Positions 6,496 to 19,866 of a stretch of DNA of 20,374 bases are shown here, piece by piece (the first letter of the stretch is position 1; every line of letters starts with the position of its first letter). Origin of the DNA: a virus. Position numbers and translations under genes: made by a program. The stretch covers positions 1-20,374 of the IMG/VR virus record IMGVR_UViG_3300009285_000361, one strand, 5' to 3'. The notes beneath the pieces are model-generated. The model was not told the DNA's origin and ran no database searches. It saw only the letters and a program-made list of their open reading frames with translations.

Positions 6496-7485
6496 TTACG
6501 CGACCGTGGCGTTGTCATTCTCCAAGTCGATGGTGTATTCCTTGCTGGTTTCCGCTGCGTTCCGGAAGCACTCGAAGTTGAAAGTTTCCTCGATCTGCCC
6601 CACGTCGCCCACCGGGGCGCTGTGCGAGGTGAGCCGGCAGTAAGGAAGCGTAATCGTGAGCTTCTCGCTACCGCTGTAAGCCCCGCCGATGGCCCCGCCC
6701 GTGCAGGTAAGCACGATCTGGAATGCGGTCGCCGCCATGAACTTGTCATAGCGAGCGAAGGATTCGAAGTCCAGGGTGAGCGACCCCGTGACAGCGATCT
6801 TGCCGTCGCGGGTCGGCTCGAAGATCGTTCGAGACCCCAACCGGCGCTTGTTGGCATTCAGGCTGTTGTTGATCGTGAGGTTGAAGTTCGCGACGTTGTA
6901 GGAGGCCCCGTCGATGGTGACAGCCCCCTGGGTAAAGACGATCAAGTTCTCCGCCGGAAGCGACGGCGAAGACTTGGCTCCGCGCGACTGGTTCTTGGCG
7001 ATGATGCTCGCTGTTACCTGAAGGAAAGAGTCCACGGCGGCAGCAAAGGTCATTTGATTGATCTTGCAGCCATCGTAGAGGAAAGCCTTGTTCTGATCCG
7101 GGGTGAGGAAGTCCGCGGAGTCCCGGAAAACCTCCAATGTGAAGGAATCGTCCACGTCATCGGCCGGGACAACGGTGTGCTTGGCGGAAGTTGCAGTGGC
7201 CGCGTAGGTGTACCCTGTGGAGCCAGAGAGGAACCGCAGCAAGCGCTCCCACCCCCCGTACATCGCGTCGAAGGCGATATCCCCCGCGTAAGCCTGCGAT
7301 CCCGCCGCCACGCGGGCAGTATCCACGCCGACCTTGTTCAGGGCACCGGACTTGACGATGGTGTGGTTGTCCACGACGGACTCGGAATTCACGTCGAGGA
7401 AGTACGACCTCGCCACCGCGGTGCCGTAAGTCGATTCCTCGCCATAGCCGACGTAAAGCTGGTGGCCGTGCCCTGCGGTTCCCAT
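6496..7485 (-). CDS. Major tail tube protein
   Basis: The 329-residue protein is the likely subunit of the tail tube. It begins with the YVGYGEESTYGTAVA pattern near residues 11-25, which is common to phage tube proteins, and shows repeated beta-strand segments such as GKIAVTGSLTLDFES near 228-242 that suggest the tube beta-sandwich fold with extra domains. The ATG at 7485 has an AGGAGGA site (7491-7497) 5 bases upstream, the strongest in the tail region, as expected for an abundant structural protein. The preceding stop TAG overlaps this site. It sits between the tail terminator and chaperone genes. The length is greater than the minimal tube protein (about 200 residues), so an added domain is possible. 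Confidence 0.88.
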   Translation of the reverse strand: MGTAGHGHQLYVGYGEESTYGTAVARSYFLDVNSESVVDNHTIVKSGALNKVGVDTARVAAGSQAYAGDIAFDAMYGGWERLLRFLSGSTGYTYAATATSAKHTVVPADDVDDSFTLEVFRDSADFLTPDQNKAFLYDGCKINQMTFAAAVDSFLQVTASIIAKNQSRGAKSSPSLPAENLIVFTQGAVTIDGASYNVANFNLTINNSLNANKRRLGSRTIFEPTRDGKIAVTGSLTLDFESFARYDKFMAATAFQIVLTCTGGAIGGAYSGSEKLTITLPYCRLTSHSAPVGDVGQIEETFNFECFRNAAETSKEYTIDLENDNATVA

Positions 7486-7495
7486 CGTGATCCTC

Positions 7496-9385
7496 CTACG
7501 CCCGAGCGCGCACGCGCACTCGAAGGGTTAATGCGACTGCAAACACGTGGCCGTGGCCGTGGTAGACATCCTCGGGAGGACGGACCTCGGCACGGTCCAC
7601 GATACAATATGCTATCTGCCCTTGGGTTATCTTTCCACCCGGTTTGTTCAACTGCCGGAAGTCCGCGAAGAGACCGACCAACATCCCCAGCGAGTCCGCA
7701 CGCAGGCGAACCACGTCGTCCGTGGTCGCGTACTCGCGGGCGAAGTTGATCCGGTAGAAATAATCCAGGTCGTATCCCCGCGGCATGTCCGCCCAACGAA
7801 TTCGGGCGTCAACAAAATCCACAAGGCAAAGCGGGAGCAAAGAACTCTGATCCCGGAGATTCGGGTAGTCCCGCAGCGTTCCATAGTTCGCGTTGCGCGC
7901 GAGGTTTAGCCGGTTGGACGCGGAAAGGTTACTATTCACGAGGGTCATAATGGCCTCGGTGATCTCCGAAGCGTCCCAGATGTTCGCGGCCCCGTTGGGG
8001 ACGACGGTGTGGATCTCCCCGAAGTCTCCTGCGGTGACTCCGTTCAAACCCTGGAAGGCGATCTCATAAACAGAGTTCTCCGTCAATCCCGTAATCGACA
8101 TCGTTGCCCCGGAAGCAACCGAGGAATTCGTGGCAGTGTAGGTCCAAGTGTTGGGAGTTGCGAAGTTTTGCACCCGGTAAGCCATTCGCCAGCCGTCGAT
8201 ATTTGATCCAGGGAAAGTGTCCAGATACCCCGTGAGCGAAGTCGCTGCGACGGACGACACCCGCCCACCAATGGCCGCGGTGGGCGCAGTCGGTGTGCCG
8301 ATAGTGCAGGAAATCGTCCCGTCCCCCAGGGATACGCGCTGATGCCCGTCAGACGTGAATTGTGCCTGGATATAGAAGTATCGTCCCGAAGGATCGGTCT
8401 CGGCTTGTAGCTGCGCCAGCGTTAACCACGAAGCATTGTATGACCCACCCCCCAAAGTGTTCGTAGCCTTGTACTTGTACTGGACAGTCCCAACCGTCGC
8501 ACCCTCGAAGTTCTCGAAGGTATCGATGGTGCTCATATCCCACGAAGTGTCATTACTCCCGCCGTCTAAGGGAGCGAGCGTAGCTGTGGGGGACGTTGAG
8601 AGAAATGGGTTTATCGCCGTTGTTGCGGGTGTGAAGCCGACAGTATGTAATTCGACTCCATAAACTTCGATCTCGTCGATATTTCCTAACCAGTTACGGT
8701 TGTCGCTATTAACCTGAGCCCCCACAGCGAACAAAGAACTGGTGGGCTGTGAAAACGCGGCAGTTACCGCGGTTGACACGGCGACAGATACGCCGTCGAT
8801 GAATATCTGCATCCGGTTGTTTGCGTCGGACCACGCAACTTCCATGTGATACCAAGTTCCTGACACCGGGGACCACGCCACGCTTCTGGTGTCCGATGTT
8901 CCAGATGGCGCTGACACGTCGAAAGTAAGTAATCCGTTGGTGTTGTGCCACAATCGAATTCGGTTGTACCCCGCTGGAGCATCCACGGAGTATAAGTCCA
9001 CAAGGAACCGTATCGCCGATGGGGCTCCCGTGTATGCAGGTCGTGCCCACATCGATATAGTTCCCTCCGCTCCGGGGTGTATCCCCGCACCAGAAGAAAC
9101 GAGCGCAACCTGTTTAGTGGACGTGTCCCACAAAAACGAGGAGGCCCCAAACTTCGGATTAGTGGTATCTCGCGTCGGGGATGTCGCCTGGATGGTTTGT
9201 CCGATGGCTCCAGCGGAGTAGATTTCGAGCGGCCCCGCTTGATCGCAGTCCAAATAGAAAAGTAAATTTGAGACTTGTTGAGATAAACGAAGGCCGGTGG
9301 CCCGAGAACCGTCCGCGCGGGTTTCTTCGACCCCACTATCAAGCGTGGCCCCATCGACTGAAATCGGAATCGTAACCGTGGTCAT
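7496..9385 (-). CDS. Tail terminator-like protein with N-terminal LamG/lectin-like and Ig/Fn3-like domains
   Basis: This 629-residue protein appears to be a fusion. Residues about 35-250 look like a LamG/concanavalin-A-like jelly roll: GTISMWARP at 108-116, WYHMEVAWSD at 178-187, MQIFIDGV at 192-199 and IDEIEVYGVEL at 236-246 are typical positions of that fold. Residues about 275-362 and 370-465 are beta-rich and Ig/Fn3-like (TGLTENSVYEIAFQGLNG at 432-449). Residues about 468-629 begin with a helix (ASEITEAIMTLVNS), then an LPLCLVDF strand, a YFYRINFAREYA strand, a helix DSLGMLVGLFADF and a final strand pair ending in basic residues. That order, and its place just before the tail tube gene, fit a tail terminator. 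The ATG at 9385 overlaps the previous stop (ATGA). The terminator assignment is inference. Confidence 0.65.
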   Translation of the reverse strand: MTTVTIPISVDGATLDSGVEETRADGSRATGLRLSQQVSNLLFYLDCDQAGPLEIYSAGAIGQTIQATSPTRDTTNPKFGASSFLWDTSTKQVALVSSGAGIHPGAEGTISMWARPAYTGAPSAIRFLVDLYSVDAPAGYNRIRLWHNTNGLLTFDVSAPSGTSDTRSVAWSPVSGTWYHMEVAWSDANNRMQIFIDGVSVAVSTAVTAAFSQPTSSLFAVGAQVNSDNRNWLGNIDEIEVYGVELHTVGFTPATTAINPFLSTSPTATLAPLDGGSNDTSWDMSTIDTFENFEGATVGTVQYKYKATNTLGGGSYNASWLTLAQLQAETDPSGRYFYIQAQFTSDGHQRVSLGDGTISCTIGTPTAPTAAIGGRVSSVAATSLTGYLDTFPGSNIDGWRMAYRVQNFATPNTWTYTATNSSVASGATMSITGLTENSVYEIAFQGLNGVTAGDFGEIHTVVPNGAANIWDASEITEAIMTLVNSNLSASNRLNLARNANYGTLRDYPNLRDQSSLLPLCLVDFVDARIRWADMPRGYDLDYFYRINFAREYATTDDVVRLRADSLGMLVGLFADFRQLNKPGGKITQGQIAYCIVDRAEVRPPEDVYHGHGHVFAVALTLRVRVRARA

Positions 9386-9672
9386 GCAGCAAGGACTTCC
9401 AAAGCCGCACGAAGGAACGCCTCGCGCAAGGTGCCACCTTCGCCGGTTTGTTCCGTCGTGCCGTCTGCGGAGACCGCGTGGACTTTGTACCGCGGGACTC
9501 CCCCCTGGGCAGGGTCATAGCCGTCTACACGGCTCACGTGCCAGCCACGTCCGTATAGAATGTCCATCGCCGTATCAGCGGTGACGTTGGCGGAATCTCC
9601 GGGACCGAGGACGACTCCCAAGCAAGCGAGAAGCTCGACTCCCAGGGTTTGCTCCGCTTGCGTGAAAGTCAT
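9382..9672 (-). CDS. Small phage protein, ABA-sandwich-like
   Basis: This 96-residue protein starts at ATG 9672, overlapping the stop of the gp10-like gene by ATGA, and ends in an ATGA overlap with the next gene, so it is translationally coupled on both sides. It has an N-terminal helical part, a central strand pattern with GRGWHVSRVDGY near 41-52 and VPRYKVHAVSAD near 59-70, and a C-terminal helix TLREAFLRAALEVLAA near 81-96. A tryptophan strand, a Tyr-x-Val strand and a terminal alanine-rich T-x-x-E-A helix resemble the phage ABA sandwich domain. It occupies a spot where a neck or tail terminator protein is often found, but it is too short for a usual terminator. Role in the virion is unknown. 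Confidence 0.7.
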   Translation of the reverse strand: MTFTQAEQTLGVELLACLGVVLGPGDSANVTADTAMDILYGRGWHVSRVDGYDPAQGGVPRYKVHAVSADGTTEQTGEGGTLREAFLRAALEVLAA

Positions 9673-10178
9673 GGTCCCCCCGCGGCCAAAATGGTTTGCA
9701 TGGCCTGCTGAACATCGGACTTCAATTCCTTAGCTCCCTCTTCCCCCGCCGGGTAGAGGTATGGCTGCGCCGGCACTCCGGGGTGCATGACACGATCCGC
9801 GAACACCGTGCCCCCCAGATACCCGGTGAAGACGAGCTTGGTAGCGCGAATGGGGACGATCTCGATGGGTTGACCCACGGGGTGTGACCGAGGCTCGCTG
9901 TCCGGGGGCGTGAGAGTTGTTCCGGAGGTCCCACCCAATGCTGTGCCAAATTCCGTCGCGGCGGCGTGCGGAGCGTTGAAGTAAATCGCCGCGTCCAGGG
10001 TATCCCCTTCGGCGGTGACTTCCACCCCCGATTGCAGACGGAGAGCCCCAGTCTCCAAGGGTGCAAGCTGTTGCGCGGTGCGCTCGACCGCTTGCGCGCG
10101 AGCGTCCAAAAGATCCTCGCCCCACCCTCGGAAGCGAGAAAGCAGTTCCAGCTTGGTGAGAAGATTCTCGATACCCAT
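9669..10178 (-). CDS. HK97 gp10-like neck/tail-completion protein
   Basis: The 169-residue protein matches the HK97 gp10-like family found at the head-tail junction of many siphoviruses. Diagnostic features are LETGALRLQS at 41-50, YFNAPHAAATEFGT at 66-79 and the hallmark HPGVPAQPYLYPA at 132-144, followed by a C-terminal helix. An insert of about 45 residues between the EFGT and HPGV motifs is longer than in the smallest members. The ATG at 10178 starts 3 bases after the previous stop and has a GAGCGAG site. The gene order connector, head closure, gp10-like, terminator fits the standard neck module. Confidence 0.88.
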   Translation of the reverse strand: MGIENLLTKLELLSRFRGWGEDLLDARAQAVERTAQQLAPLETGALRLQSGVEVTAEGDTLDAAIYFNAPHAAATEFGTALGGTSGTTLTPPDSEPRSHPVGQPIEIVPIRATKLVFTGYLGGTVFADRVMHPGVPAQPYLYPAGEEGAKELKSDVQQAMQTILAAGGP

Positions 10179-10181
10179 GTG

Positions 10182-10496
10182 TTACTCGCTCTGTAGCCGT
10201 CGGGCGATGCAACGGTAGTGGAACTCGTACTCCTCGACAGTCTCGATCTCGTAAGTCACATCGCCCTTGACTACCTGGAACCCCGGAGCGACGGTATGCG
10301 CCTTGTGGACGAAGATCGTAAACCGTTCCTGGGCCGGGATCGCGCCCAAGTTAGTTAGGAACTCCTTGGTCTTCAAAGGCGAAATTTTGACCTGTGCGGA
10401 AGTCTCGTTCGAGGCATAGGACACCGAGTAGGGCGCGGTAGTCCCGGACCGGGTGCCAGCCTTGATAGTCGCAATCTCGGTTAGTCCGAACAGCAT
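10182..10496 (-). CDS. Head-closure-like protein
   Basis: This 104-residue protein lies between the gp6-like connector and the gp10-like protein, the usual position of the head-closure (stopper) protein that seals the filled head. It is predicted to be beta-rich, with segments such as TAPYSVSYASNETSAQVKIS near 20-39, RFTIFVHKAHTV near 58-69, FQVVKGDVTYEIETVEEY near 73-90 and a final strand FHYRCIARRLQ. The VVKGDVTYEI pattern (a loop in which a coordinate or field is defined) is common in head-closure proteins. The ATG at 10496 begins 3 bases after the connector stop. The call rests on order, size and this strand pattern. Confidence 0.65.
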   Translation of the reverse strand: MLFGLTEIATIKAGTRSGTTAPYSVSYASNETSAQVKISPLKTKEFLTNLGAIPAQERFTIFVHKAHTVAPGFQVVKGDVTYEIETVEEYEFHYRCIARRLQSE

Positions 10497-10499
10497 GGA

Positions 10500-11123
10500 C
10501 TACCCCAGAACCGGGAAGAAGTCGTCCACCGGGGGATCTACCCGACGCCACACGTCCAGAGTTTCTCGGAACGCGGTTGGAATAGCCTTGTCCTCCATAA
10601 TAACGAAAAGTCCGCCCTCGGCACGCTGTCGAATTCCGCGGACCCCGGCCCCGCGGTAGAGATACGCCGCGAACTCGATGCCAACCCGTTTCAGCGCTTC
10701 CGGGGTCGTGGCGTAGCCGGCGGTGTAGACCACCTTGATGTTCTGGGTTCCCCGCACCCAAATGGCGTCACCCAGACACCGGAGAATCCCCTCCGCGCTT
10801 TCTACTACGTAATCGTCGTCCGCAGGGCTGGACTGCCCGGTGAGCCACGCAGTTGCCGCCGCGAAATTCCGTTGCCCGTCCACGTTTACAGTCGTTGGAT
10901 TTCCGATGAGCGGGTAGTTGCGGAGGTTTAGGACTGGCGTATCGTTGCCGTCGTGGTACTCCGTGTAAGCGGTGGAAAGGATAGTCCGGTCGATGTACGC
11001 GAGGATGACCTCCGTCGCCCGATTGATGGCATCGTCCAACTGCGTGTCGTTGGTCGTACCCGACAGGCGTAGGAAATCCTTGAGATCCTGCTGCGAGCAA
11101 AGGGCGTTCGTGTTGACGGTCAA
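10500..11123 (-). CDS. Head-tail connector protein (gp6-like)
   Basis: The 207-residue protein looks like the adaptor ring that binds beneath the portal. It starts with a helical segment CSQQDLKDFLRLSGTTNDTQ near 9-28 followed by LDDAINRATEVILAYIDRT near 29-47, the typical opening of gp6/gp15-type connectors. A middle beta-rich insertion (near 50-125) ends with IKVVYTAGYAT near 128-138, a strand-turn motif widespread in this family, and then helices that finish the fold. The start is TTG at 11123, 3 bases after the glycosyltransferase stop, preceded by a GGGGGG purine run within that gene. No in-frame ATG is available near the N-terminus without losing the first helix. Confidence 0.85.
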   Translation of the reverse strand: MTVNTNALCSQQDLKDFLRLSGTTNDTQLDDAINRATEVILAYIDRTILSTAYTEYHDGNDTPVLNLRNYPLIGNPTTVNVDGQRNFAAATAWLTGQSSPADDDYVVESAEGILRCLGDAIWVRGTQNIKVVYTAGYATTPEALKRVGIEFAAYLYRGAGVRGIRQRAEGGLFVIMEDKAIPTAFRETLDVWRRVDPPVDDFFPVLG

Positions 11124-11126
11124 GGA

Positions 11127-12191
11127 CTACCCCCCGATGGGCTCGAAAGTGACCGGCTTGCGCCCCTTACGCGCCGCGGGCGTGAAAGCGTTGAGCGCTG
11201 AAGGAACCGGCGCAGACGCGGCTTTGGTTGCGAGGGGGCCTTCCAGCCGCCACTCAGCAGTGTTGGCGAGGCTTGCCGCGTGCGCCAAGGTTGTAACGAT
11301 TCGCTCGCCCGAGGACACATCTACGACCACCGCGGCATCCCCGTAGCGAATGATAGGCGGGCGCTCGGGATCGGCTGCGGTGGGCTGCGCCGGAGCATCG
11401 GACGCTACGCGAAAGTCCCGCGGGAAGTCCGCGAGCAACCTCCGGGCAACGGCCTCGGGAACTTCGACCACACCGGGGTGATCCAAGGACAGTCCTGTTC
11501 CCCGGTATACCGGGCGCGTCCGAGCCAAGAACTCGATTTTCAGTTGCCCCACAACTGGACCCCTTTCCTGCATTCGATCAATCCACGCTGCGTGCGGGGC
11601 TTCGTGCCCCTGGAGCCATTGGTAATACGCTGCGCGGGCCTCCCGTCGCTCTCTAGTATACTGCCGGACCTCGTGGAGAAGAATCGGAGAGTCCAAGACG
11701 GGCCGGGGCAGGTGGTTCCGGCACTGTGTCCCCACGAAAAGCCCGAAATGGGTGTGCCGGTACTCCAAGCCTCTTTCATGGCGAAACACCCGGTACTTTC
11801 GCTCGGGGATATTCCGTCCGTCTTGCCGGATAAGCCAGAGATCCGCGTCCGAACCGTCGAAGCCCGGCCAGACGCCTTGAGGGATCTCGTCGGCGTCGAT
11901 CGTCACATAGAGATCCCCCGGTTCCCCCACGAGGTAAGCACTCCGCTTGGCGACCTCGGAGGACCAGGGCGAGCCCCGTGGAGCCTCGATCAGGTGATCG
12001 GCAAGGGATCGGGCCACATCGAGCGTGTCGTCTGTGGACGCGCCTGTATCGACTCCAGGGAACTGCGCATAGCGACCGTCCACGACGATGATCTGAACGT
12101 CTGACGGAAACGAAACACGGGTGGCCCGGAGCATCCGCTCCAGACCACCCGCGCAGTTGTAGACGCTGCAAACTACAAGCAGCTTGGGCAT
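11127..12191 (-). CDS. Glycosyltransferase (GT-A, family 2-like) fused to a small phage head-associated domain
   Basis: The product is 354 residues from the ATG at 12191. The N-terminal part is a GT-A glycosyltransferase: MPKLLVVCSVYN gives the first strand, IIVVDGRY (34-41) the nucleotide-sugar strand, and VTIDADEIPQGV (96-107) the D-x-D metal-binding motif. Residues about 216-264, with RPVYRGTGLSLDHPGVVEVP and VARRLLADFP, resemble a short domain that stands alone after the capsid gene in other phages. The last 90 residues are basic, Ala/Pro-rich and end TFEPIGG. The start was chosen because the first strand begins there, 8 bases after the capsid stop; a frame opening at 12260 would add 23 unlikely residues inside the capsid gene. 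It may glycosylate a virion or host surface component; the target is unknown. Confidence 0.8.
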   Translation of the reverse strand: MPKLLVVCSVYNCAGGLERMLRATRVSFPSDVQIIVVDGRYAQFPGVDTGASTDDTLDVARSLADHLIEAPRGSPWSSEVAKRSAYLVGEPGDLYVTIDADEIPQGVWPGFDGSDADLWLIRQDGRNIPERKYRVFRHERGLEYRHTHFGLFVGTQCRNHLPRPVLDSPILLHEVRQYTRERREARAAYYQWLQGHEAPHAAWIDRMQERGPVVGQLKIEFLARTRPVYRGTGLSLDHPGVVEVPEAVARRLLADFPRDFRVASDAPAQPTAADPERPPIIRYGDAAVVVDVSSGERIVTTLAHAASLANTAEWRLEGPLATKAASAPVPSALNAFTPAARKGRKPVTFEPIGG

Positions 12192-12199
12192 TGTTGGGA

Positions 12200-13588
12200 C
12201 TAGACGGTATCGGCCACGTTGTACAGAAATGCCGTGTGGTTCTTCCCGCTGCCCTCCCACGAACCGAAGTCCCAGCGCGCGGACACGTTGATCTTGTCCT
12301 GGTCCACGCGGGAGTCATTGAAGACCTTGACGGTCACGCCGCGTCGCTCGCCCAGAGTCCAGGCCGTGCGGTTGACGATGACGATGACCGTCTTCGTTGT
12401 GGTCGTGCCGTCGTAGACGCCCGAGGCGTTCAAGTTCTGCCGGCAGTCCTCGCTCACGACGATGGGGATGTTGTCCAGCTTGTCGATCTCGCCGCGAAGG
12501 ATGGACGCATTCGCGCCGTACTTCTCGGCGGTCTCGACCTGGGTGAGTCCCAGGATTCGCATGGCCCCGGCCACGGAGGTGATGATGGCGAGATCCTTCG
12601 GATTCGCCATGTACTTCGCACCCGTCGCGCGGGCGTTGCGGAACAGGGAGAGGGCGAAGGTCGCGCCATCGAACTGCATGGCCGCGGGCGCGTACTTGCG
12701 CAATCCTGTCCAGAGCTTGTCGGCATGCGTGGAGGAGTCCACGTCCGAGTCCTGGTGAGGCTCGGTCGTGTCGCCGTTGATAAGCGCCGAGTCCAGGCCG
12801 TGCGCCATCGCCTTGGTGATGAGGGCGCGGATCTTGGGCAGGACGGGGATGATCGAGTCCTCGTTCAGTTCCTCCGAAATCGGGATCTGGAAGCCGGCCT
12901 TCTTGGCGGTGAGCGTCAGCTTCCCGGTCGCCTGCGAGACCGAAGTGAACTGGCTCGCGGAGTTGGTCGTGGCCTCGGTCAGGATCTTCATCAAGGGCAG
13001 CGTGCCGTCGATGGGAGCCTGATAGGGATTGCTGGGCATCCGCGTGACATCGAAGAGGCTCGCCACGCCCGCCTCCAGCCGGACGACCTCGTGGAGCTTC
13101 GAGGATGTCTCGGTCGGGACCCATTCGTCGCCGACTGCGGTGCCGGTGGAGTACATCGCGGCCTTGGCGACGCGCGACGCCTTCACGACCTTCGCGCCCT
13201 GCTCGCAGAGCTTGGGGAAGCCCTTGCGAAGCTGGTGATACAGGCGGGAGTTGACCGCCGCGGGCGAAACCTGCCACACGGGGTTGTCCTCGTCCTTGTT
13301 CAGGAGCCGGACGTTGCCCAGGATCGAGTGGACGAGCACGAAATCATCGACGGCCTTCTGGAATCCCACGAGTTCATCCTTCTCGTGGTGCCCGAACAGC
13401 ACATCCTCGAAGTCCCGCACCTCCGTGATCCCGGGGCGGTCGGCGACCTCGGAGTGCGTGCTCTGCGTGCGGGCCGCGAGGGCGGCGATGCCCTTCTTGA
13501 TCTTCTCGGGATCGCCCTTGGCGCGGACGGCGTTGCGGATGTCCGAGGACTCCTTCCGGAAGGCGTCCAAGGTCGCGGTGGTCAACAT
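12200..13588 (-). CDS. Major capsid protein (HK97 fold)
   Basis: This 462-residue protein is the probable major capsid protein. An N-terminal helical region of about 80-100 residues (MLTTATLDAFRKESSDIRNA onward) could be a scaffold-like delta domain. Beyond it come the hallmarks of the HK97 fold: a long spine-type stretch with ELNEDSIIPVLPKIRALITK near 245-264 followed by the AMAHGLDSALINGD motif (267-280), a P-domain segment near 325-375 and a C-terminal strand HTAFLYNV. It has the best ribosome binding site in the head region, GAGGAGA at 13596-13602, 7 bases before the ATG, as suits an abundant protein. It follows the protease/scaffold gene, as in most HK97-like phages. Codons here are strongly G/C-ending compared with the tape measure gene. 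Confidence 0.93.
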   Translation of the reverse strand: MLTTATLDAFRKESSDIRNAVRAKGDPEKIKKGIAALAARTQSTHSEVADRPGITEVRDFEDVLFGHHEKDELVGFQKAVDDFVLVHSILGNVRLLNKDEDNPVWQVSPAAVNSRLYHQLRKGFPKLCEQGAKVVKASRVAKAAMYSTGTAVGDEWVPTETSSKLHEVVRLEAGVASLFDVTRMPSNPYQAPIDGTLPLMKILTEATTNSASQFTSVSQATGKLTLTAKKAGFQIPISEELNEDSIIPVLPKIRALITKAMAHGLDSALINGDTTEPHQDSDVDSSTHADKLWTGLRKYAPAAMQFDGATFALSLFRNARATGAKYMANPKDLAIITSVAGAMRILGLTQVETAEKYGANASILRGEIDKLDNIPIVVSEDCRQNLNASGVYDGTTTTKTVIVIVNRTAWTLGERRGVTVKVFNDSRVDQDKINVSARWDFGSWEGSGKNHTAFLYNVADTV

Positions 13589-13595
13589 GGTCTTG

Positions 13596-13602
13596 TCTCC
13601 TC
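13596..13602 (-). promoter_or_regulatory. Ribosome binding site of the major capsid gene
   Basis: The minus strand reads GAGGAGA 7 bases before the capsid ATG at 13588. It is a near-perfect match to the anti-Shine-Dalgarno consensus, stronger than most sites in the window, and explains high capsid output without a separate promoter. Confidence 0.75.
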
Positions 13603-13628
13603 GCGTGGGTTCGGGATCTTGGGGGTTT

Positions 13629-13985
13629 CTACTTCGCGCCGTCGCCGTTGATGGCCCCGGCCAACTTCTCGGCTTCCATCACATCCGGGGCGCTGCGCAG
13701 GGCCTCGACGGTCGCGCTGAGTTCGCGGATCGTGTTCTGCTGCTCGTCGATGACCTCGGCGGACTTGGCGAGCACCTCGTTGCGCACGGCGACGGCCTTT
13801 TCCACGGAGACGAGGACGCCCAGGACGTACTGCGCCTGGTCGTTCGTGCTCTTGGCGAGGGCCTCGGCCTCGTCCTTGACCGGCGCGAAGCTCGGTACGA
13901 ACTCGACGCGCTCGGCTTCGACGGCCTTGGAAAGGGCGACTGCGGACTTCTGGATGGCTTCCAGGGTCGTCTTGATGGGCTCCAT
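13629..13985 (-). CDS. Nested scaffold protein from an internal start in the protease gene
   Basis: An in-frame ATG at 13985 (Met272 of the protease reading frame) is preceded, after exactly 8 bases, by AAGGAGA (13994-14000), one of the best ribosome binding sites in the window. The 118-residue product starts MEPIKTTLEAIQKSAVALSK, is rich in Glu, Lys, Ala and Val, and should form a long helix or coiled coil with no catalytic residues, as expected of an internal scaffold. Lambda C/Nu3 and several HK97-type phages use this same in-frame arrangement of scaffold inside the protease gene. The start is seen directly; the function is inferred from position and composition. Confidence 0.75.
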   Translation of the reverse strand: MEPIKTTLEAIQKSAVALSKAVEAERVEFVPSFAPVKDEAEALAKSTNDQAQYVLGVLVSVEKAVAVRNEVLAKSAEVIDEQQNTIRELSATVEALRSAPDVMEAEKLAGAINGDGAK

Positions 13986-14842: not shown

Positions 14843-16189
14843 TTAGTCAAGCGCTCCTGACCCCGGATCAATACCCTGTTGTTTAGCGTAAAGCGTGGCT
14901 CGACGGCGTACCACATCCACCCACCGAGGTTCGATGTCCATGATCCGGGCCTTGCGCCCAGTTTTCATGCACCCCAACAGGCAAGTCCCGGAACACGCAA
15001 AGGGATCAAACACCAAATCCCCCTGCCGGGTGTGGTTCTGGATCGGTGTTTCGTAAAGCGCCACTGGCTTCATGTTGGGGTGACTCCGGTTCTGGTGCGC
15101 CGTATCATCCGGCACGTCCCACACCGTCGTCTGATTACGTTCGCCGTAAAACGGAGGGCGCGATCCCTGTTTCCATCCGTAAAAGCAAGGCTCGTGCTGA
15201 AACTGATAATCCCCGTAACCGAAGGATGGGCTAGATTTCCGCCAAATAATTTGTCGGTGAACCAGAATTTCAAGGCCCGTAAGGGCGGCGGAAAAAACTC
15301 CGTGCGTTCGATCCGCGAACCACACGTACCACGCCGCGTTTGGGGCCAATGCGCAGTCCCGAGCGTTCTTGAAGGCGGAGTCCAGGAGTTCTCGTAAAGC
15401 CTCGGGAGTGTCCAGGGCTATTTCCGTGACCCACTTCCGGCCTTTGCCTGACTCCGTTCCCGTAGCAACTTGCGCTTTGAAGCGGTCCTCGTCCGTGTAA
15501 TTCACGCCATATGGGGGGTCCGTGACCATGAGCGCTGCGTGCTCCCCAGCCATGAGGGCCGAGACGTGCTCGGGATTGCGGGCGTCGCCGCACATAACGA
15601 GATGCCCGTCCCCAATCGCGTAGATTTCGCCCAAAACGCTGGCAGGCGTTTCGGGCTCTTCTGGGCACACAGAACGTTCGGGCTTGGCAGGCGTACCAGC
15701 TTGCGCGACAAGCTTCGCGGCTATGGCCTCAAGTTCTTGAAGCCGCGTAGACCCATACAGGTCTGGTAACGCGGCGCGGGTTTGTTGAAGAAGTTCATCG
15801 AGTTGCTCGGTCCAATCCCCTTGGATCGCAGTGTTGTTGAGCGCGAGATTCAGAAGTTTCTCTTCGTTCTCGGAGAGATCCACCACCGAGACGGGAACTT
15901 CCGTAGCTCCGAGTTCCGCAAGGGCCTTCAAACGCTGGTGTCCCCCCACCACTCGGTGCAGCCTTCGGTTGAAAACAACGTCCTGTACAAGTCCAAACTG
16001 CGCGATGCTCGCGGTCAGCCCGCGCAAAGACGCGGCATCGATGGTCCGAGGATTGTACTCGGCGGGGTGTAATGCCGAGAGCGGCATCGTGGTGCGTGCC
16101 ACGACGGGCACACCTCGCAAAGGAGCCAAGGGCGACGCGGCGCGGAAACGTGCTCGAAGCTTTGCAAGCTTCTCGGGAATTTCAGGCAT
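14843..16189 (-). CDS. ParB-domain / DNA methyltransferase fusion
   Basis: This 448-residue protein has two recognisable parts. Residues about 32-120 are a ParB/Srx-type domain: YNPRTID near 45-51, FGLVQDVVFNRR near 65-76 and VVGGHQRLKAL at 80-90. Residues about 185-430 are an amino-methyltransferase: the catalytic DPPYGVNY at 224-231 comes first, then HPNMKPVALYETPIQN near 370-385, then the SAM-binding VFDPFACSGTCLL at 393-405. This order puts it in the beta group of N4-C/N6-A enzymes. No restriction partner is seen nearby, so it is likely an orphan methylase protecting phage DNA from host nucleases. The ATG at 16189 overlaps the portal stop by 8 bases with no clear ribosome binding site, so translational coupling is likely. 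Its place between portal and protease is an insertion in the head cassette. Confidence 0.92.
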   Translation of the reverse strand: MPEIPEKLAKLRARFRAASPLAPLRGVPVVARTTMPLSALHPAEYNPRTIDAASLRGLTASIAQFGLVQDVVFNRRLHRVVGGHQRLKALAELGATEVPVSVVDLSENEEKLLNLALNNTAIQGDWTEQLDELLQQTRAALPDLYGSTRLQELEAIAAKLVAQAGTPAKPERSVCPEEPETPASVLGEIYAIGDGHLVMCGDARNPEHVSALMAGEHAALMVTDPPYGVNYTDEDRFKAQVATGTESGKGRKWVTEIALDTPEALRELLDSAFKNARDCALAPNAAWYVWFADRTHGVFSAALTGLEILVHRQIIWRKSSPSFGYGDYQFQHEPCFYGWKQGSRPPFYGERNQTTVWDVPDDTAHQNRSHPNMKPVALYETPIQNHTRQGDLVFDPFACSGTCLLGCMKTGRKARIMDIEPRWVDVVRRRATLYAKQQGIDPGSGALD

Positions 16190-18119
16190 CGAGAACGGGG
16201 AGCGTTAAACACCGACACCCGAGGCGCGCTCCGGACTCTGCCTGTGCGTGGTGCGGGTGAAGAATCTTCTGGCCGTCCACCATGAATGGTGTTCTCAGGG
16301 GCGCGCGGAAACCATGAGCTTGCGCGTGCGTCGGCCGAGAATAAGCGTCCCGCTGTGAGAACCATGTGGTTTCCCGGACCTTGGCGAGCCAGTACGCTCG
16401 ATAAGCCGCGTGATTCGCGGCGGCAAACGCGAGGTCCATCGCGAGAACTCGCAAGCGAGGCCGAATGGTTTCTTCTGGGTCTTCGGACTTGTAGATCGCG
16501 TCTCGCAGGCCCGCGGAGAGAAGGTCCTCGACATGGCAGACCGGGGAGAGGAGAAGCCCTCCCTCGGATTTCGCGACCACATGCAGAATCTCGCAAGCGT
16601 CCTGGAACACGCCTTCATAACTCGCTGTGACCGTGGCCCCCAGCGGAGAGCGGAATTTCCTACCACTTTCGGCTAGAAGCGTCGGGAGTTGCGGATCGCG
16701 GCGAGTTGCCGCCTTGGCGACGGACAGTTGCGCATCGAAGGTGTCCTGAAGGATCGCTTCCAAAGACGGTGTGATATACCGAACCGCGGCGGTGTACGAC
16801 TTGAGAAGGTCATCGGCCCGCCCGGTCTGTCCGGAGTTAGACACAACCGGATTCGGAAGCGGAAGCTCCGGGGCCACGACGTTGACAGGCGTTCGCGGAA
16901 CGGTTTGCCCGGATGCTCCGGCCAGAGCATTCTTTCCCTGCGGCAAGATGTCCGTAACGAAGACTTCACCGGCCTCCGGAGGCAACGGGTCCAGGTTACA
17001 CCCGATCCGGGCCTCGTTGCGGGTGGCAAGGCCGTCGCGCCAGAGGCCCCGCCACTCTTGCTTGCGCTCGGTTAAAGTCTCTGCGGTAGTCAGGAATTCC
17101 TCAAACCGAGCTACAACCCGCGCGCCGTGAGACGCGAAGACATGCCGATTCAATGTGCCGAAAACTTTACGAACCTGCGGCTTGAGTGTCCCGGTATAGA
17201 AGACGTGCTTTTCTTCCTTGACCGCCGCTCGACCCGCTCCCCCGGAAATACCGACCAAAACAGGTGGAACTCCGCGAGCCATGAGAATCTTTTCGCGCGC
17301 CGAAGCACTCAAGTCCTTGAAGGCCATGTCTCGGTATGACGGGGTAAGAACCTGGACCTCCATACCTGCCGTGACAATCCCGATTCCGTGGGCCTTGTCC
17401 ACCCCACCGAAAGCAGCCCTCCAGCCAGACAGCAAACGCCGCTTCTGGATATTGGAGAGGATTCGATCCGTTTTGAGCACGATCCCGGGGAGTGCGTTAT
17501 TCGAGAAAAAGACCACGTTGAATCGCTGGGAGTAAAAATCAGCCAAAAGAGCTTGCCGAGACGGGACGCTGGGCGAGAGGCCCAATACTGGGTTGGATGG
17601 GTGAAAATGCCGGGAGATGACGATGTTCTCGGCGGGAATTACAGACTTCTCACGCCCGTCCACGTCCTCGAAGACCCAGGATTGTACCGTTCCATCGGGG
17701 TTGGTTTGGTAAACACTCAAGCGATCCGAGCGCGTGGGATACACGCTGGAGACCAATTCCCCGGCGTAAACGCGGTGAATCGGGACATGCCCGAACAATT
17801 CCCGGTAGAAAAAGCACGCCTCGATAAACTCAAACCACGTCCCGTCCTTGTAAGGCTCTTGCTGAAGAAGCACTGCCGGGTGATCGTCTGGAGCGGAAAC
17901 CCACTTGCCCATATCCCCCTTGATCTGAACGTCAAGGGGCATGTCCGCGGCATGATTCGCGATGCACTTGATGGCCGCGTAGTCATAAACCGTTCGGAGA
18001 GTAAGCTCCGCCTGGGAAAGGGTAGACTGCGTAACCTCGCCCATGTCGGCCACGTCCACGACCGGGTGCCGGTCCAGGGCACCTTTCGCGTACTCGATGA
18101 CAGCTTTGAAGATGTTCAA
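16182..18119 (-). CDS. Portal protein with MuF-like C-terminal domain
   Basis: The 645-residue protein is a portal of HK97/phage lambda type fused to a head-morphogenesis domain. Residues about 1-400 are portal: TVYDYAAIKCIANHAADMPL near 44-63, the NNALPG core segment followed by KTDRILSNIQKRRLL, and the RNEARIGCNLDPLPPEAGE stretch typical of the portal clip region. Residues about 430-645 resemble the MuF domain, ending in TTWFSQRDAYSRPTHAQAHG (584-603) and GCRCLTLPV (634-642), the usual W-x-D, paired His and C-R-C signature. Starting at TTG 18119, it overlaps the terminase stop (TTGA) and has GAGGA upstream. MuF-like domains in the portal chain are usually injected or scaffold-associated; here it replaces a separate gene. 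Confidence 0.92.
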   Translation of the reverse strand: MNIFKAVIEYAKGALDRHPVVDVADMGEVTQSTLSQAELTLRTVYDYAAIKCIANHAADMPLDVQIKGDMGKWVSAPDDHPAVLLQQEPYKDGTWFEFIEACFFYRELFGHVPIHRVYAGELVSSVYPTRSDRLSVYQTNPDGTVQSWVFEDVDGREKSVIPAENIVISRHFHPSNPVLGLSPSVPSRQALLADFYSQRFNVVFFSNNALPGIVLKTDRILSNIQKRRLLSGWRAAFGGVDKAHGIGIVTAGMEVQVLTPSYRDMAFKDLSASAREKILMARGVPPVLVGISGGAGRAAVKEEKHVFYTGTLKPQVRKVFGTLNRHVFASHGARVVARFEEFLTTAETLTERKQEWRGLWRDGLATRNEARIGCNLDPLPPEAGEVFVTDILPQGKNALAGASGQTVPRTPVNVVAPELPLPNPVVSNSGQTGRADDLLKSYTAAVRYITPSLEAILQDTFDAQLSVAKAATRRDPQLPTLLAESGRKFRSPLGATVTASYEGVFQDACEILHVVAKSEGGLLLSPVCHVEDLLSAGLRDAIYKSEDPEETIRPRLRVLAMDLAFAAANHAAYRAYWLAKVRETTWFSQRDAYSRPTHAQAHGFRAPLRTPFMVDGQKILHPHHAQAESGARLGCRCLTLPVLDA

Positions 18120-19048
18120 CTTTCCTCTTCGCCAGGCGGCAGGGCGTAGAACCCGAGATCATCCTCGGGCAAAGATCGTCTACCACCATCGTAACCCGAA
18201 TCGGCTCCGGAGGGTAGCCCGCGGGGGATCGGAACAATCTCCGGAATCTGTCCGATCTTCTCTCCCTCAAAGCAAGATACCAAAGCTCCCGCGAGAGCAT
18301 CGCTCACGTCCTTCGATCCGGTAGACCTGTGGTCGATTTTCTTCCCGCCGTGAACCAGCACGAGGTCTTCGAGATTTCGGAAGAGCGGCTCGTAGGCGTA
18401 GTAGTCCAGGAAACCAGAGTAGAACGCTTCCTGGAGAGTTTCATGCGCCTCAGCGGTACGGTCTACAGAAATGTGTTTCGTTTGCACCCCCTGGGCTTCT
18501 AGATCCTGTTTCAACTGTACCGAACCCCACTGGTCCCCGCTGGCACAGGCGATGTGAAAGCCGGAGCGGATCAAAGCCTTGATGAGAGTTTCCACCGCAG
18601 CGATTCGGATTTGCCCTCCTTCCGGCGCTCGGATTTCCAACACAAAATCCACAACCACGCGACCGCGCTTAGGCGAGTAGTGGACCATCGCCAAGCCCGT
18701 TGCGTCCCGCGTGGCAGAGAGGTCAAAGTGCAGGTAGTAGTTCGCGAAACGGGGACGAAGATCCCGGGTGAACCGGCCGTCGTCCGTGAAGGGGTGTTGA
18801 CGGGAGGATGCAGCGGCTCGAATCGGGTCCACGGAGGGGTAAAGAGAACGTTCCTCGCTTTGGTCCTCGGGAGCCGAGGCCATGTCTCGGAGCGCCGCGT
18901 GAGGAGCGATTGCGAAGCGGGAAAGAAAGTGCTCAAACGTGACGGATGGCGAGAACGCCCACACCGGCCCCAACACCGCGAGCCGGTTCTTGTGGATATA
19001 AACCTCGACAGGGAAATCTTCCGGAGAGGGGTTTACGCGCTTTCCCAC
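18116..19048 (-). CDS. Terminase large subunit, nuclease part
   Basis: This 310-residue frame holds the C-terminal half of the large terminase, the enzyme that cuts DNA at packaging. VWAFSPSVTFEHFLSRFA near 29-46 and ALRDMASAP near 52-60 match the linker between ATPase and nuclease. The RNase H-like nuclease shows LHFDLSATRDATGLA (106-120, Asp109), the ASGDQWGS strand (169-176, Asp172) and KDVSDALAGAL near 246-256 (Asp247/Asp250) as candidate metal ligands. It starts at GTG 19048 with GGGGGAG 9 bases upstream and overlaps the ATPase half by 16 bases. Alone it lacks ATPase motifs, so it is either a second subunit or the rest of a frameshifted gene. Confidence 0.9.
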   Translation of the reverse strand: MGKRVNPSPEDFPVEVYIHKNRLAVLGPVWAFSPSVTFEHFLSRFAIAPHAALRDMASAPEDQSEERSLYPSVDPIRAAASSRQHPFTDDGRFTRDLRPRFANYYLHFDLSATRDATGLAMVHYSPKRGRVVVDFVLEIRAPEGGQIRIAAVETLIKALIRSGFHIACASGDQWGSVQLKQDLEAQGVQTKHISVDRTAEAHETLQEAFYSGFLDYYAYEPLFRNLEDLVLVHGGKKIDHRSTGSKDVSDALAGALVSCFEGEKIGQIPEIVPIPRGLPSGADSGYDGGRRSLPEDDLGFYALPPGEEES

Positions 19049-19866
19049 GGAATGGGGCTCCCCCGGCGCTTGATGTCCTCGATGACTTGCCGTTGGTGGT
19101 CCTCTTTGCTTCGGCTGGAAGAGATCGAAAGGACTTTGTAGTGCCGTGGAAACCGGCTTTCGGCCGAAGACACGATCATCTCCATGAGAACTCTCGCGTT
19201 GGACTTGCCTGAAGTATCCCGGTGTTTGTTGGCTTCGTCCAGTACGCCCCGAAACACGTCATGGCCTTCGAGCCCCTCGGAGCGGGAATGCCCGCAGAGG
19301 GCCATGACCCGCCCATCGGGGAACATGGGTGAGCGGTCCCAGACGATAGTCGTTGTGAAGAACTCCGCTCCTTCAGCCAAGTATGGGACTCGCTTCACAA
19401 AGCTCTTAAGTTTCGCGAAGACGCCGTAACGTGCCGTGCCCTCCGAAGTGGACACGTTGAGAAGAACGATGGGCCGTCCCGGGTCCAGGCCAAAAAAAGC
19501 GTGTGGATCGCCCAGGGCTTTCAATTCTCCGCGGGCGTAGGCAAGAAATGCCGCGCTCATCGTGGATTTCCCACCGCCTTTTCCGACTTCAATGTACGCT
19601 TCTCGAATTTCCGGGCGATGCACGAGACGAAGAAGTCGCTGCACTCCGGGCCAGATTTTGGCCCCCCCCAGCCACGCCGGGTCTTCGAGGAACCCCCGGA
19701 TATCGAGGTAAGGGCCTTTAGCGATTTGGTACGCAAGCTGCGCGGCTCGTTCGGGGTCTTTCCTCCGAAGTTCCAACAAGGTGCGTGCGATTTCCCCGGG
19801 ATCGGGAAATCCACCCACTTCGGGTAGTGCCCTAATTTGCACGCACCGCCTCGGGGGTAATGTCAT
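19033..19866 (-). CDS. Terminase large subunit, ATPase part
   Basis: This 277-residue frame carries the packaging motor ATPase. YIEVGKGGGKSTMSAAFLAY contains the Walker A GKGGGKST at 95-102, VFRGVLDEANKHRD the Walker B with Asp210 and Glu211, and KVLSISSSRSKED (244-256) the coupling motif III. The chain ends after SPIPWESA at TAA 19033-19035, where a normal large terminase would continue into its nuclease domain; that domain is found in the -1 frame of the overlapping gene. The ATG at 19866 overlaps the stop of a small ORF (ATGA) and lacks its own clear ribosome binding site. Sum of both parts is about 585 residues, a normal size for a large terminase. Confidence 0.9.
   Translation of the reverse strand: MTLPPRRCVQIRALPEVGGFPDPGEIARTLLELRRKDPERAAQLAYQIAKGPYLDIRGFLEDPAWLGGAKIWPGVQRLLRLVHRPEIREAYIEVGKGGGKSTMSAAFLAYARGELKALGDPHAFFGLDPGRPIVLLNVSTSEGTARYGVFAKLKSFVKRVPYLAEGAEFFTTTIVWDRSPMFPDGRVMALCGHSRSEGLEGHDVFRGVLDEANKHRDTSGKSNARVLMEMIVSSAESRFPRHYKVLSISSSRSKEDHQRQVIEDIKRRGSPIPWESA

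Follow-up and report, generated by a model that had tools for sequence, protein, structure and literature searches.

A 629-residue protein encoded in the 20,374-nt stretch of DNA analyzed here (the window), which comes from an uncultured long-tailed phage, is, with a probability of roughly 0.8, a tail terminator (residues 465–629) to which an N-terminal arm of about 460 residues has been added. The arm carries a lectin-type LamG domain and a fibronectin type III (fn3)-like domain and is proposed to be displayed at the neck of the virion.

An ORF check of the window places the 629-codon reading frame at positions 7496–9385 of the minus strand. On the minus strand, the portal gene is followed in turn by a ParB-type methyltransferase (by eye), the protease/scaffold region, the capsid protein, a glycosyltransferase-like gene, the adaptor, a probable stopper, the gp10-like gene, a 96-residue orphan, the 629-residue protein, the tube, a chaperone-like gene, the tape measure, and Dit (Table 1). 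A first-pass annotation of the sequence had described this frame as lying directly before the tube gene, with only a 96-residue protein between it and the gp10-like gene, and both points hold: the tube gene is identified by its Pfam family, and the gene order confirms the rest. The 629-residue gene thereby occupies the slot directly before the tube and after the gp10 and stopper genes, where the terminator gene also lies in the IMG/VR locus IMGVR_UViG_3300031716_000051 (L020), P74-26, PaMx28, VpKK5, and Elanor. Phages with homologous tubes carry a bare terminator of about 126–182 residues at or beside that slot.

The ATG of the 629-residue gene overlaps the TGA of the 96-residue gene (ATGA), and an equivalent overlap links the ATG of the 96-residue gene to the stop codon of the gp10-like gene. 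These overlaps fit translational coupling and a correctly assigned start for the 629-residue frame. The 96-residue gene is inserted between the gp10 and terminator genes and is apparently translationally coupled to both.

The glycosyltransferase-like gene between the capsid and adaptor genes (11127–12215, minus strand; phrog_7009, E = 4.5e-4) has relatives at the same position in L020 (11117–11896) and L039 (2552–3355), and L024 and L038 carry other glycosyltransferase-like genes nearby, judged by eye. Its product might modify virion proteins. The ParB-like DNA methyltransferase-type gene, also recognized by eye, occupies 14843–16189 (minus strand), with the portal gene on one side and the protease/scaffold gene on the other. 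The large terminase (18116–19866, minus strand) apparently consists of two overlapping frames, 19033–19866 and 18116–19048, and seems split, whether by a sequencing error, a frameshift, or a true split.

Table 1. Positions of the proposed terminator gene, its parts, and its neighbors in the window
Feature	Position	Strand	Basis
Tail tube protein	6496..7485	-	PF18906, E = 5.8e-33; L020 homologue, E = 2e-52
Proposed decorated tail terminator gene, 629 aa	7496..9385	-	Unbroken frame, ATGA start/stop overlaps, domain matches, L020 homologue
Tail terminator domain, residues 465–629	7499..7993	-	L020 homologue (phmmer, Smith–Waterman), AF2 fold of homologue
Fibronectin type III-like domain, residues 392–460	8006..8212	-	Pfam fn3, sub-cutoff
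Segment without family, residues 256–391	8213..8620	-	Sequence pattern
Laminin_G_3 (concanavalin A-like lectin fold) domain, about residues 38–250	8636..9274	-	Pfam, codon usage
Pfam Laminin_G_3 match proper, residues 100–246	8648–9088	-	E = 2.3e-15
96-aa orphan protein	9382..9672	-	No family match; no counterpart in relatives
HK97 gp10-like tail completion/neck protein	9669..10178	-	PF04883, E = 6.5e-5; phrog_5, E = 3.6e-11
Probable head-closure stopper	10182..10496	-	Weak Phage_HCP match (E = 0.027) and position
Head–tail adaptor	10500..11123	-	phrog_442, E = 6.1e-24; L020 homologue, E = 7.5e-19

Domains of the N-terminal arm

LamG-like motifs had been noted in the first 250 residues of the protein, followed by Ig/Fn3-like segments to about residue 465. 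The LamG domain is real: its Pfam Laminin_G_3 match scores 57.5 bits against a cutoff of 27.6, far above chance, and the domain reaches 61.8 bits in a genome search. No close relative of it with a solved structure was found. The second claim stands in part. Residues 392–460 match fn3 slightly under the Pfam cutoff (E = 1.1e-4; 22.7 bits, cutoff 25), whereas residues 256–391 match no Pfam family; the label "Ig-like" applies to the former only. From their sequence pattern, residues 256–391 could possibly form a further beta domain, although this is a guess. Neither PHROGs nor NCBIfam gave a match for the 629-residue protein, and the phage matches of a full-length query were limited to LamG.

Identity of the C-terminal domain

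Terminators are reported to share a fold without sequence similarity (PMC11784142). The C-terminal domain had no sequence match in Pfam, PHROG, NCBIfam, or the PDB, terminator family models included, and neither the full protein nor this domain, searched directly against IMG/VR, GTDB genomes, phages, and plasmids, retrieved a relative of the domain. When the domain, by itself or paired with its L020 homologue, was compared by HH-suite with terminators of known position and decoys, terminators did not rank first and no score was significant. Single-sequence AF2 modeling of residues 459–629 yielded a pLDDT of 33 and no usable model.

It was the comparison with L020 that settled the terminator identity of the domain. 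A two-row capsid alignment (the window and Microcystis phage Mvi-JY20) led to 24 IMG/VR loci, L020 among them, and by sequence L020 is clearly the nearest relative found of the window phage. The capsid proteins match at 40%, and homology extends to the tube and adaptor (Table 1), Dit (E = 7e-35), the protease region (4e-19), the glycosyltransferase (7e-10), and the chaperone (1e-5), with a gp10 gene also common to both. Directly before its tube gene, between stopper and tube, L020 has a free-standing gene (13465–13968) for a 167-residue protein that matches residues 499–628 of the window protein (phmmer, E = 5.3e-8). This phmmer search, run with the C-terminal domain on 2359 ORFs, gave no further match beyond the L020 locus and its near-identical twin. 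The Smith–Waterman score of the domain against the L020 protein is 108, compared with a mean of 26.7 (SD 4.1, maximum 53) for 2000 shuffles (z about 20), and the other window proteins tested against the L020 protein reached local scores of at most 34. Both sequences contain the motif E-x-R-P-P-E-D-x-Y. The L020 protein itself matches no family in Pfam, PHROG, or NCBIfam.

The L020 protein was modeled with AF2 from two rows only, its own sequence and the window domain; a broad terminator alignment was left out as too gappy and partly circular. With no known terminator in the AF2 alignment, the terminator match of the model was not built in. The model (pLDDT 63.2, pTM 0.59) runs through a long helix, strands, a long strand, a second helix, and two long strands, so that the homologue aligned with the window domain is predicted to have the helix, antiparallel sheet, second helix, and two long strands of the terminator fold. 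Foldseek searches against the PDB returned terminators throughout the best matches. VIA-align 2 gave Z scores of 11.3 for T5 p142 (over 145 residues), 10.8 for the P74-26 neck chain, 10.7 for DT57C, 10.4 for HFTV1, 10.0 for Chi, and 9.9 each for Mu and RcGTA. Nearly all of the 50 PDB matches listed belong to the neck, cap, or terminator proteins found in phages or phage-like machines. A Z score slightly above 8 may lack specificity, which is not true of a list in which almost every entry is a terminator and the phages are unrelated. The P74-26 neck chain has 155 residues, the length of gp92, whose gene precedes the homologous tube. In BFVD, the model matched annotated tail terminators and also HHTV-1 gp26, and the HHTV-1 tube is homologous to the window tube and among its nearest.

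The strand–helix order of tail terminators that the first-pass annotation had read in the C-terminal part is thus confirmed through the homologue; in the comparison with lambda gpU that the annotation had put forward, the model of the homologue scores Z = 8.8. Since the window-only model was unusable, the fold of the window domain rests on homology at 22–26% identity. The annotation had also considered that the C-terminal part might not be terminator-like, or that the 96-residue neighbor might be the terminator instead; the evidence speaks against both. It is very unlikely that the domain belongs to another connector ring protein, such as a stopper or tail completion protein: small alpha–beta folds are common to connector rings and the AF2 model is of middling confidence, but the gp10-like and adaptor genes are identified separately, the stopper weakly, and the best structural matches listed are terminators rather than stoppers or gp10 proteins. 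Still more improbable is that the 96-residue protein, despite its position between the gp10-like and tube genes, is the true terminator and the 629-residue protein a separate neck or tail decoration, given that the former has no match in PHROG, NCBIfam, or other family searches, lacks a counterpart in L020 and in 18 other records, and is shorter than the comparator terminators, while the C-terminal domain of the latter has a homologue with the terminator fold in the terminator slot.

History and proposed role of the arm

Because the terminators of L020, the HHTV-1 group, P74-26, and other relatives are bare, the simplest account is that the LamG-plus-fn3 module was gained N-terminally in the window lineage. 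No LamG match was found in L020. The LamG segment shows the poorest fit to the codon usage of the contig, within the lowest 1% of comparable windows, which suggests, without proving, that LamG was a later arrival in the gene; parts of the tape measure gene are equally low, and the terminator domain is ordinary. In relatives, LamG is found 3' of the tape measure gene, in Mvi-JY20 (at 68122) and in Marinitoga virus UF08_35, and HHTV-1 gp36, a LamG protein by annotation, also follows the tape measure gene.

The window protein is the one fused terminator found. The 562-residue gene of Mvi-JY20 was considered as a second case and rejected, as it reads as the tube of that phage and is followed by the chaperone, and Marinitoga virus UF08_28, considered as an enlarged terminator, was rejected as looking by eye like a second tube. 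The probable Mvi-JY20 tube (L012, 13185–14873) seems to bear an extra N-terminal domain of about 170 residues. In L030 (12048–12979), two successive pre-tube genes are both terminator-like by eye, suggesting a duplicated terminator.

The terminators described so far assemble as hexamers on the final ring of the tube. Their sheet, which the helices flank, lines the lumen, and they halt tube growth and contact the head (PMC11784142). By analogy, six copies of the window protein would assemble into a ring at this position, end the growth of the tube, and dock with the stopper and head, with six LamG–fn3 arms pointing outward around the neck. An N-terminal fusion is plausible at this site, since the T5 terminator is soluble and monomeric with an N-terminal tag and polymerizes with a C-terminal one (PMC11784142). 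The neck of the phage is therefore probably encircled by six such arms, each putatively binding sugars.

Ig-like or carbohydrate-binding domains on the tube, capsid, or neck bind glycans or cells in some phages, making a weak, avid adhesive role the best guess for the arm. The Ig-like domains of Douge bind host glycans (PMC13033339), and in 936 phages the carbohydrate-binding modules at the neck bind to the cells of the host (PMC6669499). The arms may likewise bind glycans weakly but with avidity, keeping the virion on host or environmental surfaces. That the terminator has been turned into a receptor-binding or surface-anchoring device, with six neck lectin arms whose number is fixed by the tail-ending ring, is a tentative reading whose odds we place just short of even.

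The main rival, which we consider unlikely, holds that the arm is structural, with LamG and fn3 bracing the head–tail joint or touching the capsid. The neck is distant from the adsorbing tail tip, and the adaptor of roseophage R4C has an Ig-like domain close to the capsid, which the authors of that study linked to local stability, not adsorption (PMC10276861). However, an arm of this length with a lectin-fold domain is far bigger than bracing needs, and the cell-binding neck modules of the 936 phages also count against a purely structural part. The chances are slimmer that the arm is cleaved or optional, with most virions carrying a bare terminator from which the lectin part has been removed or released: the codon usage of LamG is what would be expected of a recent, dispensable addition, but the 629-residue gene is a single unbroken frame.

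Relation to known systems

As a proposed terminator with a lectin-type arm, the window protein resembles the siphophage terminators T5 p142, lambda gpU, P74-26 gp92, and those of HFTV1 and Chi in the predicted fold of its homologue, its pre-tube position, and a domain size of about 165 residues. Those terminators are bare, at about 120–180 residues, whereas the window protein has its additional N-terminal residues with LamG and fn3. The neck passage structure (NPS) of the 936 and P335 lactococcal phages also has carbohydrate-binding modules at the neck, which in the window protein are putative. However, the NPS protein, which is dispensable, makes up a collar of its own with a BppU-like base and coiled-coil fibers and is modeled in 18 copies (PMC6669499), whereas the window module lies within the terminator itself and is expected in six. 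The orientation also differs: the NPS has an N-terminal base and a C-terminal carbohydrate-binding module, and the window protein has an N-terminal lectin and a C-terminal anchor.

The R4C adaptor is similar in that an extra beta domain is fused to an essential head–tail connector protein, but it forms the adaptor ring, has one Ig-like domain and no lectin fold, and was proposed to contribute to stability (PMC10276861). Large terminators of contractile phages and injection systems (T4 gp15, P1, PVC cap, and phiKZ) likewise combine a terminator domain with extra residues or domains; these can serve the sheath (PMC11784142), whereas no sheath gene was seen within the 20,374-nt window. The Ig-like decorated tube and capsid proteins of lambda (gpV), T5 (pb6), and Douge also bear promiscuous virion-decorating beta domains but, unlike a terminator, display them in many copies along the tube or capsid.

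A review of phage Ig-like domains names tail fiber, baseplate, tube, capsid, and Hoc proteins as their carriers, and terminators are not among them (PMC9022992). A literature search, with many subscription journals outside its coverage, found no case of a terminator with LamG, lectin, fn3, or Ig domains. A lectin-bearing siphophage terminator does not seem to have been described; it would be a new combination of known parts, decorated tubes, capsids, adaptors, and neck collars being known already.

With this protein, the terminator would join the virion components bearing Ig-like or lectin-type domains. Since exactly six terminator copies are expected in each virion, the fusion would give a countable collar of lectins with no need for a separate neck protein. 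The domain gain affects a ring protein that is among the most conserved, a bare homologue is available for comparison, and the fusion may serve as a natural test of the size of N-terminal cargo that a terminator ring accepts. If the terminator does act as an adhesion device, it would represent a new site in the virion for adhesion domains.
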